From positions 398,996-462,995 of the forward strand of contig JAZKBU010000001.1 of assembly GCA_040388375.1 (NCBI GenBank): a DNA stretch of 64,000 bases. Reading direction: 5' to 3'. The position numbers were made by a program, and so were the translations under genes. Source of the stretch: Bacteroidota bacterium (lineage in GTDB: Bacteria; Bacteroidota; Bacteroidia; UKL13-3). Shown here piece after piece: positions 33,406 through 43,845 of this stretch; position 1 is the first letter of the stretch; every line of letters begins with the position of its first letter. The notes under the pieces are model-generated. The model was given only the letters and a program-made list of their open reading frames with translations. It was not told the origin of the DNA and ran no database searches.

Positions 33406-33430
33406 CTTGTTGGTGTTCTTCACCAACAAG
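33406..33430. repeat. CTTGTTGGTG hairpin, copy 1
   Basis: CTTGTTGGTG-TTCTT-CACCAACAAG, a perfect 10-bp stem. One of five copies in the window. It lies between hairpin cluster A and the CPBP protease gene. Confidence 0.9.
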
Positions 33431-33506
33431 TTTTTCGAAATTGCACATTAGCCTGCCTGATGCAAAACCCCTGTTACCTGCTGGACTTTTTTGAGTTAAG
33501 ATTATT

Positions 33507-34220
33507 TTATTTCGTTGTCGCCATTAGAAAAAGTGTTCCAATTATTATTACGTCTTGTATAAAATGTATTGTCCAAGCCCAAAAGAAGCCATTTGTTTCG
33601 TAAAGCGATTTGGCTAAAACAAGTCCTAAAACTCCTGCCATAGTTGCACCTATTAATCCATTTGGCATACCTGCTAAATGTGGAATTCCAAATAAAATAG
33701 CCGAAATAATAAAAACTGTCATTGGTTGTAAAAGCCCTTTTAGCGGTGATACTATTCCCATTCTATATATCATTTCTTCTCCAAATGAATTAGTTAACGA
33801 AAAAAGTAAAATCCAAAAAATGCCACTTTGTAATAAAGTCCAATTAACCTGTGCATGTTTCAGTTGAAAATACATAAAAGTTGCTGTTGCTAAACTTATG
33901 AATATTGTCAATGAAATTCCTGTTTTCAGCCAACTGTCATTGGCTTTAATTCCAAACAATTTCAATTCATTCGCAGGCTTTGAAATGTCGCCAAATTTAA
34001 AATAGTTAAACAAATTTTCTTTGCTTAAAAAATAGGTTACAGTCAAAGAAAGTAAGGTAATAAGCAACAGCAAAAACTGGTAATTAAATTGAAAGTTTAT
34101 ATATTCATTTTGAGAAACTTCAAACAACTTTGAGGTTTTCAGTTGTTGAGAAACCAATAAAATCAATGCCGTAAATACTACAACAAGAATTATCGGTAAT
34201 GCTATTTTAAACTTTTCCAT
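33507..34220 (-). CDS. CPBP family intramembrane metalloprotease (CAAX protease-like)
   Basis: 237 residues with about six to seven hydrophobic segments. The Abi/CPBP active-site motifs are complete: EEMIYR (Glu148, Glu149, Arg153), 'FGIPHLAG' with His181 and 'WTIHFIQD' with His219 and Asp223. Members cleave prenylated or membrane peptides and some relate to bacteriocin immunity. It is 77 bases downstream of a Crp/Fnr-type gene on the same strand, so the regulator may control it. Both lie inside the repeat island. Confidence 0.88.
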   Translation of the reverse strand: MEKFKIALPIILVVVFTALILLVSQQLKTSKLFEVSQNEYINFQFNYQFLLLLITLLSLTVTYFLSKENLFNYFKFGDISKPANELKLFGIKANDSWLKTGISLTIFISLATATFMYFQLKHAQVNWTLLQSGIFWILLFSLTNSFGEEMIYRMGIVSPLKGLLQPMTVFIISAILFGIPHLAGMPNGLIGATMAGVLGLVLAKSLYETNGFFWAWTIHFIQDVIIIGTLFLMATTK

Positions 34221-34297
34221 TTTTATACTTGATTACAATTAGTGCAAAAATGAAAACATAATTTAAAAAAAACATATCGTATGGTAAGAAATGAAAA

Positions 34298-34873
34298 TCA
34301 AGACATCTTTTTTCTTATTCGGCTAAAACTTTCTGGTGTAATTCCCAAATATGAAGCAATGTATTTGTTTGGCGTCCTCTGTATAATGTTTGGTTGCTTT
34401 TCAAACATTTCAAGATAGCGTTGTTCGGCAGTTTTTGATAATAGTTCTAACTGTTGCGTTTGTTTGTGTATGTACAAACTTTCAGATGCAATTTGGCAAA
34501 TTCGTTGCCCATATTCAGTTTTCGACAATAGCTCAAAATTTTGTTTGTCTATCCTAAAAAGAGTAGAAGGTTCAAAACAAATCACTTCGAGTTCTGTCGA
34601 CTGATTGGTGATAAATGAAAAATAATCGCCAAAAAAATCACCTTCGTAACACAAGTCAATGCACAGATAATTATTGTTTTGAAACAACATAATTCCACCT
34701 GAACCTTTTAAAATAAAATAAAAGTATTTTTCTCGCTCGCTATACTTTTTTAGCACTTCGTTTTTAGCAGTTTCAATTACTTGTCCACTTTCAGCAAATG
34801 TTTCCCAAATTTCTATCGGTGCATTAAAGTAAAGATCAAATGTTTGCTTAAAAGTGTCTGCTAAATTCTGCAT
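34298..34873 (-). CDS. Crp/Fnr-family regulator with cyclic-nucleotide-binding domain
   Basis: 191 residues: a cNMP-binding beta-roll (about 20-125, 'EREKYFYFILKGSGGIMLF' and 'LCYEGDFFGDYFSF') and a C-terminal winged helix with 'PNKYIASYLGITPESFSRIRKKMS'. The degenerate phosphate-binding cassette, lacking the usual RxA arginine pattern, is common among Bacteroidota Crp-like regulators. It precedes the CPBP protease gene on the same strand and is probably co-transcribed with it. The ligand is unknown. Confidence 0.87.
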   Translation of the reverse strand: MQNLADTFKQTFDLYFNAPIEIWETFAESGQVIETAKNEVLKKYSEREKYFYFILKGSGGIMLFQNNNYLCIDLCYEGDFFGDYFSFITNQSTELEVICFEPSTLFRIDKQNFELLSKTEYGQRICQIASESLYIHKQTQQLELLSKTAEQRYLEMFEKQPNIIQRTPNKYIASYLGITPESFSRIRKKMS

Positions 34874-35015
34874 TTTTATTTACTGTTGTTATTCAAAGGG
34901 TGTCTCGTAGCCTTGCAGGTAAATTGTATATAGGCCCCATAATAGGAGACCAATCTCTCTATTTTGGCTGGACAGGTCTCATAAATAGCCCTTTTATTTT
35001 CAAATGTATGTTTTA
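34874..35015. other. Intergenic segment with imperfect inverted repeat
   Basis: The stretch upstream of the Crp/Fnr gene has no gene. GGAGACC (34945-34951) and GGTCTC (34975-34980) are complementary at their cores, and flanking GGCC/GGGC stretches (34933 and 34988) extend a loose inverted repeat. It may be a worn recombination site like the two clearer ones nearby, but this is weak. Confidence 0.35.
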
Positions 35016-35141
35016 TTCATAAATCATCCATGTACTTTTTACCCTTGTTGGTGTTCTTCACCAACAAGTTTTATAGCTTCAACTATTTACAAAATACCCA
35101 ATGTAATTTAAACATAAACCACGTCAGTAAATTTAGTATTG
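35016..35141. repeat. Leader block, copy 1 (partial)
   Basis: About 126 bases matching 36406-36532: ATTCATAAATCATCCATGTAC, the CTTGTTGGTG hairpin (35044-35068), then TACAAAATACCCAATGTAATT and CACGTCAGTAAATTTAGTATT up to CTAAC. It abuts the attC-like site on its left side. The left third of the full block, present in the other copies, is missing here. Confidence 0.9.
35044..35068. repeat. CTTGTTGGTG hairpin, copy 2
   Basis: Perfect 10-bp stem with TTCTT loop, identical to copy 1. It lies inside leader block copy 1. Confidence 0.9.
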
Positions 35142-35266
35142 CTAACTGTTCCACGCCTTGCGCTGGTGCCGATTTTGGAAACGTATGTGTCCACAGATAT
35201 AATTTAATTAGAAAACGAAAAGCTCAATGTTAGAAGTTACCGGCACTTGCGCAAGACGTGTGTTAC
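35142..35266. repeat. attC-like recombination site 1
   Basis: 125 bases from CTAAC (35142-35146) to GTTAC (35262-35266). Read from the two ends, CTAACTGTTCCACGCCTTGC... and GTAACACACGTCTTGC... align as an imperfect inverted repeat, continuing to GTGCCG on both arms with a few unpaired bases on one side. This matches the general design of integron attC sites (RYYYAAC...GTTRRRY ends, bulged stem, variable centre). It starts 7 bases beyond the stop of the minus-strand gene at 35274. Confidence 0.6.
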
Positions 35267-35273
35267 GCGTGGT

Positions 35274-36293
35274 TTAGTCGAAGGAGTCATGTTTCCAATG
35301 GTCAACTGTAATTCGATCATATTCCGACATTACGGCCAACTCTTTTAACCCGTCATAAATAGGGTCTGGGAATCGCTCTAGCGCTGCAACAATATAAATT
35401 GCATGTTCATGATTAATTTCAGTCTTCGAATCTTTTAACACTTTCTCAATCATTTGCCTTGAGGCCGAGTCTTTATATTGAACCATGGCTCTGTAAAGCA
35501 TTCCTAGAATGTGGCCAGTGTTAGTTGAGACCTCTGCAAGTTCTCTCTTCTGAATGGTCTGCAAATAAGGAAAGAAGTCATTAGCCGGGAAATGTCTTAC
35601 AGCCTTCAGTCCGTCAAACCACTGCCAGATACTTGTGTCCACTAATAATTTAACTATTAAATCTTTGTCGCGTTCCTTATGGAATTTGGAGAGATATACA
35701 ATACACTTACCTGAGGATGTCTGAATGTAAATGGATCTTATTCGTTCATAGTGCTTTTCACTTGCAGGGGCTCTTTGGATTGCACTCCACTTGGCTGAAA
35801 GCATTATGGTAGCATCAAAAATCAATATACTGTCTATGAGGTTATTTTCTGATAAGGATAATTTATAAGCATCAGGTTCTTGATATTTGGAAGTTACCAC
35901 ATCCAAGAAGTAGTCACCAACCCGATACCTTGAAATTATGCAACCTTGAAAGGTTTTAACTGTTGTCGTGTCATGTAGGTGCTTGGTCAGAATTGTCAAT
36001 ACACTCGAGTCCTTCCTTTTGGCTAAAGCAAGAAAAGCGTAACATCTAACGGAAGCATTAGCATTGTCAGTAAGTAAAAGTAATTCTGATTTTGTCGCTA
36101 TCTTGTTGAGATTCTCAAAATTGATATATTGTTTAGACCTCGCACCTCCCTCTCCAATGGCGCGACTGTGAACCTGATTGTAGTCCGCAATAGAACGAAC
36201 CAAAGTTAGTACCCTTGGCCGTATATTTTGTCCCGTGGAACTAAATTGTCCGCACGTGAATAGAAAAGCTATTATAATGGATATGATTCTCAT
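35274..36293 (-). CDS. Exported HEAT-like repeat protein, cassette gene
   Basis: 339 residues with an N-terminal signal peptide (about 1-22, ISIIIAFLFTCGQFSSTGQ). Helical repeats such as 'NANASVRCYAFLALAKRKDSSVLTILTKHL' resemble HEAT/PBS-lyase repeats, with further pairs near residues 230-330. No catalytic motif was found. The ATG lies 8 bases after a GTTATGC core, and the stop is 7 bases before the attC-like site, so the gene occupies nearly the whole of a 1.16-kb cassette-like unit. Its codon use and GC look higher than the neighbours on both sides, consistent with transfer. Confidence 0.8.
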   Translation of the reverse strand: MRIISIIIAFLFTCGQFSSTGQNIRPRVLTLVRSIADYNQVHSRAIGEGGARSKQYINFENLNKIATKSELLLLTDNANASVRCYAFLALAKRKDSSVLTILTKHLHDTTTVKTFQGCIISRYRVGDYFLDVVTSKYQEPDAYKLSLSENNLIDSILIFDATIMLSAKWSAIQRAPASEKHYERIRSIYIQTSSGKCIVYLSKFHKERDKDLIVKLLVDTSIWQWFDGLKAVRHFPANDFFPYLQTIQKRELAEVSTNTGHILGMLYRAMVQYKDSASRQMIEKVLKDSKTEINHEHAIYIVAALERFPDPIYDGLKELAVMSEYDRITVDHWKHDSFD

Positions 36294-36307
36294 AAATCAC
36301 GCATAAC

Positions 36308-36532
36308 TTATATATATGTGCTATTTTATGGCACATATCCAACCAAAATTTGATGGATTGGTGCCATAACTAAATGCACATAATCGTATTGCAATGTATT
36401 ACTATTTCATAAATCATCCATGTACTCTTTACCCTTGTTGGTATTCTTCACCAACAAGTTTTTACAGCTTACACTATTTACAAAATGCCTCATGTAATTT
36501 AAACATAAACCACGTCAGTAAATTTAGTATTT
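36308..36532. repeat. Leader block, copy 2 (full)
   Basis: About 225 bases between a GTTATGC core (minus strand, 36307-36301) and the CTAAC of attC-like site 2. It shares TTGCAATGTATTACTATTTC and ATAAATCATCCATGTACTC with copy 3, and everything from 36406 with copy 1. Relative to copy 3 it carries about 44 extra bases containing an inverted repeat (TATGGCAC...GTGCCATA, 36318-36370 region). No gene is seen. Confidence 0.88.
36434..36458. repeat. CTTGTTGGTG hairpin, copy 3
   Basis: CTTGTTGGTATTCTTCACCAACAAG; one stem position is changed (GTA against CAC). It lies inside leader block copy 2. Confidence 0.88.
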
Positions 36533-36660
36533 CTAACGTTTGGCAGATTTGCGATGGGCGGGATTTTTACCACTGAACTTTATGCGGAGTACAGAACTTT
36601 CGGCTAATACTAAACTGTCTGCGGAGCGCGAAACCCCACCTATTGCAAATGTGCTGTTAG
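36533..36660. repeat. attC-like recombination site 2
   Basis: 128 bases from CTAAC (36533-36537) to GTTAG (36656-36660). The arms GCAGATTTGCGATGGGCGG and GCACATTTGCAATAGGTGG (right arm read in reverse complement) pair at most positions, several mismatches being G-T wobbles, and continue to GATTT/GGTTT. CTAAC is followed by an unpaired GTTTG on one side only, the asymmetry expected of attC. The minus-strand gene's stop codon TAA lies inside the terminal GTTAG. Confidence 0.65.
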
Positions 36661-37136
36661 TGGCTGGCATTTCTATCTTTGATTATTTTTATGTCCTGCT
36701 TTTTGTCCGTCAACCACAAATGAATTTCATAAAAGTCATCTCCATCAAGTCCATCGTCACTTATTTTGTCAAGATTACCATAATAAAGTCTTGCTCTATA
36801 AATCCCATTTTTAAGTTCAATTCTTTTTGCCTCTGGGAAATAGTCTGTGCAACCTGCTATTACAATTTTTCCTGAACTAATTTCTATGTCGCACTCGTTT
36901 ATTTGTACAATTACATTTTCGTTGTCAGTCAAAAATGGTGGTTCAATGTCAAATGTTTTAATTGTTACCGGAACATACATATTCCTTACTGTTCCAACAC
37001 CTATTGTTCCGTCCGCTGTCGCTAAAAGTTGTTCAACTGCTTCTGTTGTCCACTTGTCGCCCAAATCACCATCTACTTTTTCGTCTTGAATATAGAACTG
37101 AAAGTAGTCTGCAAAAAGTTCTAATTTAATTTCCAT
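36657..37136 (-). CDS. ComJ/Nin-like protein, cassette gene
   Basis: 159 residues from MEIKLELFADY (37136); an upstream Met at 37220 lies in the repeated leader and is less likely. The segment 'KWTTEAVEQLLATADGTIGVGTVRN' (split) resembles the 'W(T)DEAIE...AADGAISFEAQRN' region of Bacillus ComJ (Nin), inhibitor of the competence nuclease NucA. The rest is beta-rich with acidic stretches (DDGLDGDDFYEIHLWL). The match is from memory of the family and moderate. A nuclease-inhibitor or immunity role would fit a cassette gene, but no partner nuclease is seen. The stop codon is inside the attC-like core. Confidence 0.6.
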   Translation of the reverse strand: MEIKLELFADYFQFYIQDEKVDGDLGDKWTTEAVEQLLATADGTIGVGTVRNMYVPVTIKTFDIEPPFLTDNENVIVQINECDIEISSGKIVIAGCTDYFPEAKRIELKNGIYRARLYYGNLDKISDDGLDGDDFYEIHLWLTDKKQDIKIIKDRNASH

Positions 37137-37176
37137 GTTCACTGTCTTATGGTTGTCTTGTATGCTTGCCACTAAC

Positions 37177-37284
37177 TTATATATATGTGCCATAACCAAG
37201 TGCACGTAATTATATTGCAATGTATTACTATTTTATAAATCATCCATGTACTCTTTGCCCTTGTTGTTGTTCTTCACCAACAAG
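37177..37284. repeat. Leader block, copy 3
   Basis: From the GTTAGTG core (minus strand, ending 37176) through ATATTGCAATGTATTACTAT and ATAAATCATCCATGTACTC to the hairpin at 37260-37284. It matches copy 2 apart from the missing 44-base insert. Beyond the hairpin the copies part, and the sequence continues into hairpin cluster C. Confidence 0.88.
37260..37284. repeat. CTTGTTGGTG hairpin, copy 4
   Basis: CTTGTTGTTGTTCTTCACCAACAAG; one stem position is altered. The 79 bases 37260-37338 match the reverse complement of 43620-43698 with about six differences. Confidence 0.9.
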
Positions 37285-37323
37285 TTTATCGCTACTAGTC
37301 TTTTTGTGTTACCATCTTTGGTA

Positions 37324-37471: not shown

Positions 37472-37951
37472 ATGACCCCAAGCATCACCACAATAACAGC
37501 AAAAAAACTGGTAGGCACATCCGTTACCATGTCGTTTGCCAATAACAAAACAGGGCTTTTATGGCAAACATTTATGCCCAAGAGAAATGCAATACAGCAT
37601 ACTAACAACAACGATTTATACTCCCTGCAACTATACCCAAGCTCCATTATTGAAAATGGATTTAGCTTTGATACCCAATTTGAAAAATTGGCATTGAAAG
37701 AAGTAAGCAGCTTTGACAATATACCTGAAGGCATGCAACCGTTTGTTTTACCCGCTGGCTTGTATGCTGTTTTTCATTATAAAGGACTATCAACCGACAC
37801 TACCATATTTGATTTTATATTTAAAACCTGGTTACCACAGTCAGGTTATGTATTAGACAACAGGCCACATTTTGAAATACTGGGTGCTTTATACAAAAAC
37901 AATGACCCTGCCTCGGAAGAAGATATTTATATACCCATCAAACTAAAATAG
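37472..37951 (+). CDS. GyrI-like small-molecule-binding (AraC effector-binding) protein
   Basis: 159 residues with no DNA-binding domain. It opens 'ITAKKLVGTSVTMSFANNKTGLLWQTFMP' and ends 'PHFEILGALYKNNDPASEEDIYIPIK', the GyrI/AraC_E_bind fold used to sense or sequester small molecules, with the conserved C-terminal Glu. It is 5 bases upstream of the zinc-ribbon/alphaCTD-like gene, so the two are probably one operon. Ligand unknown. Confidence 0.85.
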   Translation: MTPSITTITAKKLVGTSVTMSFANNKTGLLWQTFMPKRNAIQHTNNNDLYSLQLYPSSIIENGFSFDTQFEKLALKEVSSFDNIPEGMQPFVLPAGLYAVFHYKGLSTDTTIFDFIFKTWLPQSGYVLDNRPHFEILGALYKNNDPASEEDIYIPIKLK

Positions 37952-43567: not shown

Positions 43568-43845
43568 CGACCCCTTCAGGGTCGTATGTTTTCGCGGTTA
43601 ACATTTTTTATTAATATTAGACTCCTTCGGAGTCTACCAAAGAAAGTAACACCAAAAGACTCGTAGCGATAAACTTGTTGGTGAAGAACACCAACAAAGG
43701 CAAAAATTGGACTCCTTCGGAGTCATTTCATACTATTGCTTGTGTTCATATAGCTGTGTTTACATGCAGGAATGAATGACCCTGAAAGGGTCAAATATAA
43801 ATAGTCAATAAAATCATGAGTTGATTCGCGACCCCGAAAGGGTCG
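43568..43845. repeat. Cluster B of GAA-loop hairpins
   Basis: Five palindromes: CGACCCCTTCAGGGTCG (43568-43584, one mismatch), GACTCCTTCGGAGTC (43620-43634), the same again (43710-43724), GACCCTGAAAGGGTC (43778-43792) and CGACCCCGAAAGGGTCG (43829-43845, one mismatch). Read in reverse complement, 43774-43845 follows cluster A 33293-33364 (shared GCGAAT.AACTC and CTATTTATATTTG spacer). The gap 43511-43939 holds only these and the copy 5 hairpin. Confidence 0.9.
43674..43698. repeat. CTTGTTGGTG hairpin, copy 5 (inverted)
   Basis: CTTGTTGGTGAAGAACACCAACAAA, the reverse orientation of copies 1-4. It lies between two GACTCC hairpins of cluster B and is part of the 79-base match to 37260-37338. Confidence 0.88.

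Follow-up and report, generated by a model that had tools for sequence, protein, structure and literature searches.

How do genes come to be arranged as cassettes of an integron at a place where no integrase is to be seen? This question is raised by a locus of a Bacteroidota bacterium (assembly GCA_040388375.1; 34 contigs, 3.97 Mb). The stretch analysed, hereafter the window, comprises 64 kb (contig C1, 398996-462995), and positions given without a contig refer to it. An earlier inspection of its letters, hereafter the sequence-only reading, had noticed two minus-strand genes, each followed by an inverted-repeat site and preceded by a GTTA core, and proposed an integron-like cassette array that could be either an integrase-less cluster or the edge of a larger array. 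Here we argue, with a probability of roughly 90%, that the window contains a satellite cluster of cassettes that belongs to an integron-like system of Bacteroidota, and that these cassettes would have been captured via a recombinase whose gene lies in another part of the genome.

Inspection of the sequence and its open reading frames (ORFs) confirmed the positions of the two genes and of the two inverted-repeat sites. A covariance model of attC, built on an alignment of 41 sites from many genomes, gives exactly two matches in the window up to E 1, both on the minus strand; these are the two noticed sites, and both belong to the 41 sites that trained the model. Cassette A (36534-37176, minus strand) consists of the gene 36657-37136 and the attC site 36534-36659 (93.5 bits, E 4.5e-18, as a training-set member), in which the TAA stop codon of the gene provides the first three bases of TAAC. 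Cassette B (35143-36307, minus strand) consists of the gene 35274-36293, which shows a weak similarity to HEAT repeats that remains below the cut-off, and the attC site 35143-35265 (77.3 bits, E 1.4e-14, again as a training-set member). The two ends of a cassette are complementary at five of five positions in cassette A and at four of five in cassette B. The GTTA cores before the genes lie at 37173-37176 and 36304-36307, and their identity is that of attI cores. Beyond the two units already noticed there is a third, cassette C (33431-34923, minus strand), with genes for a Crp-like regulator (34298-34873) and a CAAX-protease-like protein (33507-34220), followed by the 5' half of an attC site (TAAC at 33473-33476). 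The 3' half is lost at a hairpin resembling repetitive extragenic palindromic (REP) elements (33406-33430), and the window scan with the attC model gave no match at this half site up to E 1. The start of cassette C, CCTGC, is complementary to its end GCAGG, as read by eye.

What links the three units is a block that occurs in three copies over 33.4-37.3 kb, each of which is followed by a different gene unit. It consists of a REP-like hairpin, about 27 nt resembling the last codons of an integrase gene, and an attI-like region that ends TATATAyAA-GTTA, and so forms direct repeats of about 100 nt between the units. All copies are on the minus strand. In unit A (37233-37284) the hairpin (37260-37284) is fused to the integrase-like tail codons (37233-37259). 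The adjoining attI copy A (37173-37232, core at 37173-37176) misses about 45 nt that copy B has, and the flank past its core is complementary at five of five positions to the end of cassette A. Unit B (36407-36533) holds a spacer X (36460-36533), the hairpin (36434-36458) and the tail codons (36407-36433), and attI copy B (36304-36406, core at 36304-36307) aligns with the attI of the genome's own integrases. Unit C (35017-35142) is built likewise from spacer X (35069-35142), hairpin (35044-35068) and tail codons (35017-35043), with a diverged attI copy C (34920-35016) that has one mismatch and a core mutated to TTTA (34920-34923). The tail codons read ..KEYMDDL and stop in copies A and B, and the integrases of the genome end in ..SPFDDL and stop; the 3' end of the latter together with the attI is 84% identical to the window repeats over 71 nt.

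The genome has eight matches to Phage_integrase at E 0.001, none of them inside the window; the cluster is thus an integrase-less satellite, as one of the two options of the sequence-only reading had it. A search of the rest of the genome for integrases, which that reading had called for, yields two, own1 (C1:172505-173539) and own2 (C1:232326-233360), that are 74% identical to each other. They are encoded on the same contig as the window, about 200 and 260 kb from it, their reading frames are uninterrupted and each is followed by an attI-like sequence and then by attC sites. The suspicion of the sequence-only reading that the array might extend past the window was correct: the genome contains 23 attC sites at E 0.01 or better. 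Own2 is followed by an attI and five sites, and the successive steps of this chain are complementary at 5, 5, 4, 5 and 2 of 5 positions; the steps after own1 score 5, 5, 5, 0, 4 and 5 of 5.

Whether this layout is a property of a family was studied with the best 80 of 553 relatives from an integrase search of genome contigs. By title 78 of these loci are Bacteroidota, including Flavobacterium, Chitinophagaceae, Saprospiraceae, Pelobium and Algoriphagus; one is from Ignavibacteria and one, with a 64% identical integrase, is on a contig titled Azoarcus (L104), for which mis-binning is possible. The attC model gives 162 matches over the 80 loci (1.08 Mb), 160 of which are on the strand of the integrase. 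Position and pairing were analysed for 157 matches, after leaving out two minus-strand matches (L090, upstream, and L083, which overlaps a plus-strand match) and three that are not full length (L053, L056 and L081); relative to the integrase, 155 of the 157 are downstream and 2 upstream. Wherever consecutive sites with TAAC and GTTA intact are separated by no more than 3 kb, the ends of the cassette between them can be compared. In 85 of 87 such pairs these ends show complementarity at 4 or 5 of 5 positions; for the two flanks of one attC site the corresponding figure is 19 of 110. A circular cassette that carries a complete site would be expected to leave this pattern when opened at GTTA. In addition, a GTTA located 81-136 nt after the integrase stop codon partners the first cassette in 36 of the 38 loci in which the first attC match starts with TAAC, and AGTTA is invariant in the 19 attI regions that were aligned. 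As in integrons, an attI is therefore present next to the integrase, and at the level of sequence the units appear to be cassettes in the integron sense, namely a gene with its attC that takes a circular form and crosses over within the GTT core. The verified cassettes have a median length of 740 bp; among the 85 verified, the longest ORF is on the attC strand in 69 and on the opposite strand in 6, with no ORF of 50 aa in 10, so cassette genes share one orientation.

The same figures bear on the possibility that these modules are moved by the host's XerC and XerD at dif-like sites and not by the linked integrase. XerC- and XerD-like enzymes are indeed encoded by the genome. However, dif-like sites measure about 28 bp, whereas the sites described here are imperfect palindromes of about 126 nt, and in 36 of 38 loci an attI partner accompanies a dedicated integrase. 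We consider this explanation very improbable.

A scan for TAAC..GTTA hairpins, the stricter first version of which missed the window sites and was relaxed afterwards, gave 0 or 1 match per 104 kb in six first-order Markov runs at threshold 9. At threshold 10 it detected 95 matches in the 325.5 kb downstream of the 80 integrases, one 61-nt match among these being doubtful, and 3 in the 646.4 kb upstream. In the alignment of 41 sites, 91.4% of the stem cells are paired, compared with 61.7% in shuffled and 30-39% in slid alignments, and 254 cells are changed on both sides versus 76.6 upon shuffling. Two of the five measures show no excess over shuffles (19 versus 17.3 pairs changed on both sides and 46 versus 45.6 pair types). 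The pairing figure is partly circular since complementary arms were what the initial scan had selected for; the contrast of 95 downstream to 3 upstream, obtained with one and the same scan, is free of that circularity. The sites hence are what attC sites are, imperfect palindromes with a structure conserved over sequence. Of 93 sites, 78 have a length of 124-129 nt, 67 have an A.C mismatch between position 19 of the 5' arm and position 23 from the 3' end, and 64 fold better on the bottom strand (mean -20.85 versus -19.54 kcal/mol). An Rfam search returned nothing of use.

Could REP elements or terminator hairpins 3' of genes have been mistaken for attC? REP-like hairpins do exist, both between the units and at other places of the genome: those of the CTTGTTGGTGAAGAACACCAACAAG type occur in the window at 33406-33430, 35044-35068, 36434-36458, 37260-37284 and 43674-43698, as well as on other contigs, with many at C3:43-60 kb and often with GGC after them. 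The description of a REP, a short palindrome of one sequence family scattered genome-wide, fits this separate CTTGTTGGTG hairpin but not the attC sites, whose arms vary with compensating changes. These differ in sequence from the REP-like hairpin and end in TAAC and GTTA, they match the end of the neighbouring cassette rather than their own flank, and 160 of 162 are on the integrase strand. The idea is further contradicted by the end complementarity and by a cassette shared between unrelated flanks, described below, and we give it hardly any credence. Identity with ordinary REP elements, which the sequence-only reading had named as fatal to its proposal, thus does not hold for the sites.

That reading had also suggested a comparison of related genomes, which revealed the arrays beside integrase relatives and one cassette common to three organisms. 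This cassette of 1.44 kb is found in Flavobacterium denitrificans, Pelobium manganitolerans and a metagenome-assembled genome of Bacteroidia with 93-94% identity and unrelated flanks; it encodes an ArsR-type regulator and a MerT/heavy-metal (HMA) protein (L058:11162-12225). In F. denitrificans it is positioned directly at attI. Of three comparisons, one places both of its breakpoints precisely at GTTA, and the remaining two place them no more than 4 nt away. The array of L057 contains an internal duplication of 1.1 kb with 99% identity.

In 35 of 61 loci the stretch from the integrase end to the core contains a motif TAnnTTTG, a candidate Bacteroidota -7 element, versus a mean of 4.8 upon shuffling and 8 of 61 on the opposite strand. 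In 31 of the 35 it is located at +9 to +19, and in 15 at exactly +14.

Taken together, integron-like capture by integrases lacking the IntI-specific additional (I2) domain, considered further below, is strongly supported across Bacteroidota at the level of sequence. The evidence consists of attI, attC, boundaries, stem pairing, integrase linkage and one shared cassette; from it we infer capture in trans, an active single-strand fold, motif-driven expression and the order of duplication and capture. In the mechanism we propose, a tyrosine recombinase encoded elsewhere in the genome would bind attI (with a core like TATATAyAAGTTA) and a folded attC, exchange strands at GTTA and so recombine the two. 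A circular cassette, gene plus attC, would thereby be inserted at GTTA, just downstream of the promoter-like TAnnTTTG motif, which may belong to a cassette promoter. In the window, the integrase tail, attI and spacer would have been multiplied, probably by recombination between REP-like hairpins, with a separate capture at each attI copy afterwards, although the order of these events could differ. Candidates for a means of avoiding second-strand cleavage without an I2 domain may be the A.C mismatch and the unequal lengths of the spacers that separate the stem from TAAC on one side and from GTTA on the other.

Several observations weigh against this reading. In the window the -7-like motif is degenerate (TACATTGC), the ends of cassette B agree at only 4 of 5 positions, cassette C has half an attC and the core of attI copy C is mutated. 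A relative of gene A was found in only 1 other of 395 genomes, and no window cassette was found elsewhere in a different context. In the own genome, the first own1 unit would span about 12.5 kb (C1:159927-172398), if its matching ends are real. The own1 step to 144553 scores 0 of 5 and the last own2 step 2 of 5, the first step of the cluster at C5:225k scores 1 of 5, C5:62k scores 0 of 5, and three steps on C9 score 2, 3 and 3 of 5; the first of these (C9:57018) was scored with the start of the site displaced by one base, and by eye it reads 5 of 5. Only 45 of the 80 integrase loci have an attC match downstream; many of the 80 contigs stop shortly past the integrase. Finally, a distant relative (L230) shows steps of 1, 5, 1, 0 and 1, four of five thus being 0 or 1.

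The decay in the window also leads to the idea of a fossil, assembled long ago and with recombination since ceased, which is compatible with a satellite cluster captured in trans. The mutated attI copy C, the truncated attC of cassette C, the shortened attI copy A and the absence of an integrase in cis all point in this direction, and unit C at least is probably dead because half its attC is lost and its attI core mutated. On the other hand, the GTTA cores of units A and B persist and their attC sites agree with the model, and the genome has two integrases with uninterrupted frames. We estimate that the chance of a fossil comes close to even.

Attachment sites apart from an integrase are not restricted to the window. 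AttI-like cores that lack an integrase or its tail but are near attC sites were found in the own genome at C1:33797, C5:225257, C9:57018 and C9:60050 (loci L236, L237 and L044). The first is followed by a matching cassette (5 of 5), and the first steps at the other three score, as set, 1, 2 and 3 of 5. With up to one mismatch the attI pattern occurs at 87 places and its reversed control at 145, so a core was accepted only where attC sites adjoin it. C3 and C4 hold two exact matches that have none of the 23 listed attC sites near them.

The proposal of integron cassettes stands as far as gene-then-attC units with GTTA cores are concerned; it does not stand for the enzyme, as the integrases of the genome lack the IntI-specific domain. 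Among the NCBIfam models, own1 and own2 exceed the cut-off of NF040815 alone (XerA/integron; 226.1 and 222.9 versus 220 bits). The integron integrase model TIGR02249 aligns to them in two stretches with 203-211 bits, below its cut-off of 265, and the alignment with IntI4 skips the stretch of the extra domain, which has 60 residues in IntI4 and 18 in the query. The spacing from KGKKDR to LRHS is 70-71 aa in all 80 family members measured (78 of the 80 loci, L093 and L123 being left out for internal stops, plus the two own integrases), compared with 112 aa in the IntI of L132, 78 aa in own XerD and 75 aa in own XerC. The long form was also found in nine further IntI loci (12 loci were taken, two without a protein). 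Thirteen more distant relatives also lack the I2 domain, and no IntI with the domain was matched in the own genome at E 1e-40. R202, K227, K230, H292, R295, H318 and Y327, which we take to be the catalytic residues, are invariant in an alignment of 42 sequences. Many family members have about 70 aa ahead of the region that aligns with Xer and IntI. A Foldseek search with a structure model identified XerA and IntI4 as the closest solved structures, which serves as a consistency check only, since the predicted template modelling score (pTM) of the model is 0.55. With a family that lacks I2, the term integron fits the apparent working of the system but fails the usual enzyme-based definition.

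The family is widespread. Of 295 genomes sampled from the class of the window, 204 contain an attC-like site at E 1e-4 or better and 103 an integrase relative at E 1e-70 or better; at most 11 candidate sites were scored per genome, which makes site counts per genome lower bounds. Among 40 genomes of other classes chosen for carrying IntI, the attC model matches in 20 and an integrase relative (E 1e-60 or better) is found in 15, in several of which it adjoins an array. Over 44 kb around 12 IntI loci the attC model gave no match up to E 1. Of 247 genomes from the phylum, 70 have an IntI with the I2 domain that scores above the cut-off; one of these 70 (G037) is labelled as the window's class, the class make-up of the 247-genome sample not being shown.

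Among the distant relatives without I2, L217, L218, L219, L223, L230, L231 and L232 show a divergent, classical-looking layout. L218 and L219 have seven sites apiece, directed away from the integrase; all twelve steps score 4 or 5 of 5, and a candidate attI lies about 180-220 nt before the aligned integrase start. A candidate attI was also sought for L223, L231, L232 and L234, where none was found. Distant relatives labelled SPLD had been considered to be without cassettes; this was dropped when the opposite side of the integrase showed divergent arrays, and with it the reading of independent origin for the tree described next, which had rested on it.

In a tree of 52 sequences the family and 12 distant relatives form a clade (support 99.8/100) apart from seven IntI (100/100), and the node that unites this clade with IntI, leaving two XerA and two XerC/D sequences outside, has a support of 81.6/93. 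In an earlier tree of 44 sequences, family and IntI were united with 99.9/100. Secondary loss of I2 and an ancestor without I2 both appear compatible with these trees; the 52-sequence tree does not decide between them because the joining node is moderately supported and the outgroups are thinly sampled. According to the first view, the window belongs to an ordinary IntI integron of which the integrase secondarily lost I2 in Bacteroidota, that loss being the sole mechanistic novelty. The grouping with IntI and the scores of 203-211 bits with TIGR02249 agree with it. The domain is however absent from all 80 measured members and 13 distant relatives, hence a single loss would be old, and the joining node has only moderate support with few outgroups. 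We hold this view possible, if somewhat short of an even chance. According to the second, which we consider about as probable, Bacteroidota would have a second widespread integron branch with integrases that never had I2, representing either the stem state before IntI or an independent invention of attC capture. If the stem state is true, attC-based capture preceded I2.

A reverse layout, with the integrase transcribed towards attI, has been described for Treponema (PMC3607928), and these reverse integrons share with the family co-directional cassettes, an attC after each gene and the GTTA core. From integrons in general the family differs by an integrase without I2, an attC of mostly 124-129 nt, the A.C stem mismatch in most sites and, in many members, the approximately 70 aa N-terminal to the aligned region; relatives with the classical divergent layout are likewise devoid of I2. 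Although own1 and own2 pass the model of XerA/IntI-like simple tyrosine recombinases (NF040815), they are, unlike these, linked to attI and attC arrays. At least two attC without an integrase nearby, as in the window, is what IntegronFinder calls a cluster of attC sites lacking integron-integrases (CALIN; PMC9024848), yet the window cluster has its own attI copies, one per unit, and so is more than a set of bare attC sites. Delta-attI-type cassettes of mobile integrons (PMC12901181) similarly have attI-derived sites inside an array, whereas the window repeats add an integrase tail and a REP-like hairpin and are set in a chromosome of Bacteroidota.

IntegronFinder requires the IntI-specific domain (PMC9668308), and its survey reports almost no integrons in Bacteroidetes proper, In0 earlier and then one complete integron, in Salinibacter ruber (PMC9024848). 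A search of PMC7370490 yielded no mention of Bacteroidetes or three related terms. A prior hint is that the I2 insertion is not fully conserved in an integron-like subgroup (PMC8138268). A literature search by titles and abstract openings, covering no preprints and few subscription journals, found no description of such arrays in Flavobacterium or other Bacteroidia. If the system works, a large pool of mobile genes, including the mercury-transport-type cassette of Flavobacterium and Pelobium, would have been overlooked. Moreover, enzymes without I2 that are linked to attC-like arrays would make directly testable the paradox of how selection could have favoured the I2 domain and attC each in advance of the other (PMC4792948).

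The neighbouring gene, when sought in relatives, had matches in 9 of 58 genomes, the own genome being one of them, and the other eight matches cover part of the query only, with 65-72% identity. Adjoining the cluster, outside the cassettes and on the strand opposite to them, is a gene (37472-37951, plus strand) that matches both GyrI-like and Cass2 ('integron-associated effector binding protein') above the cut-off.

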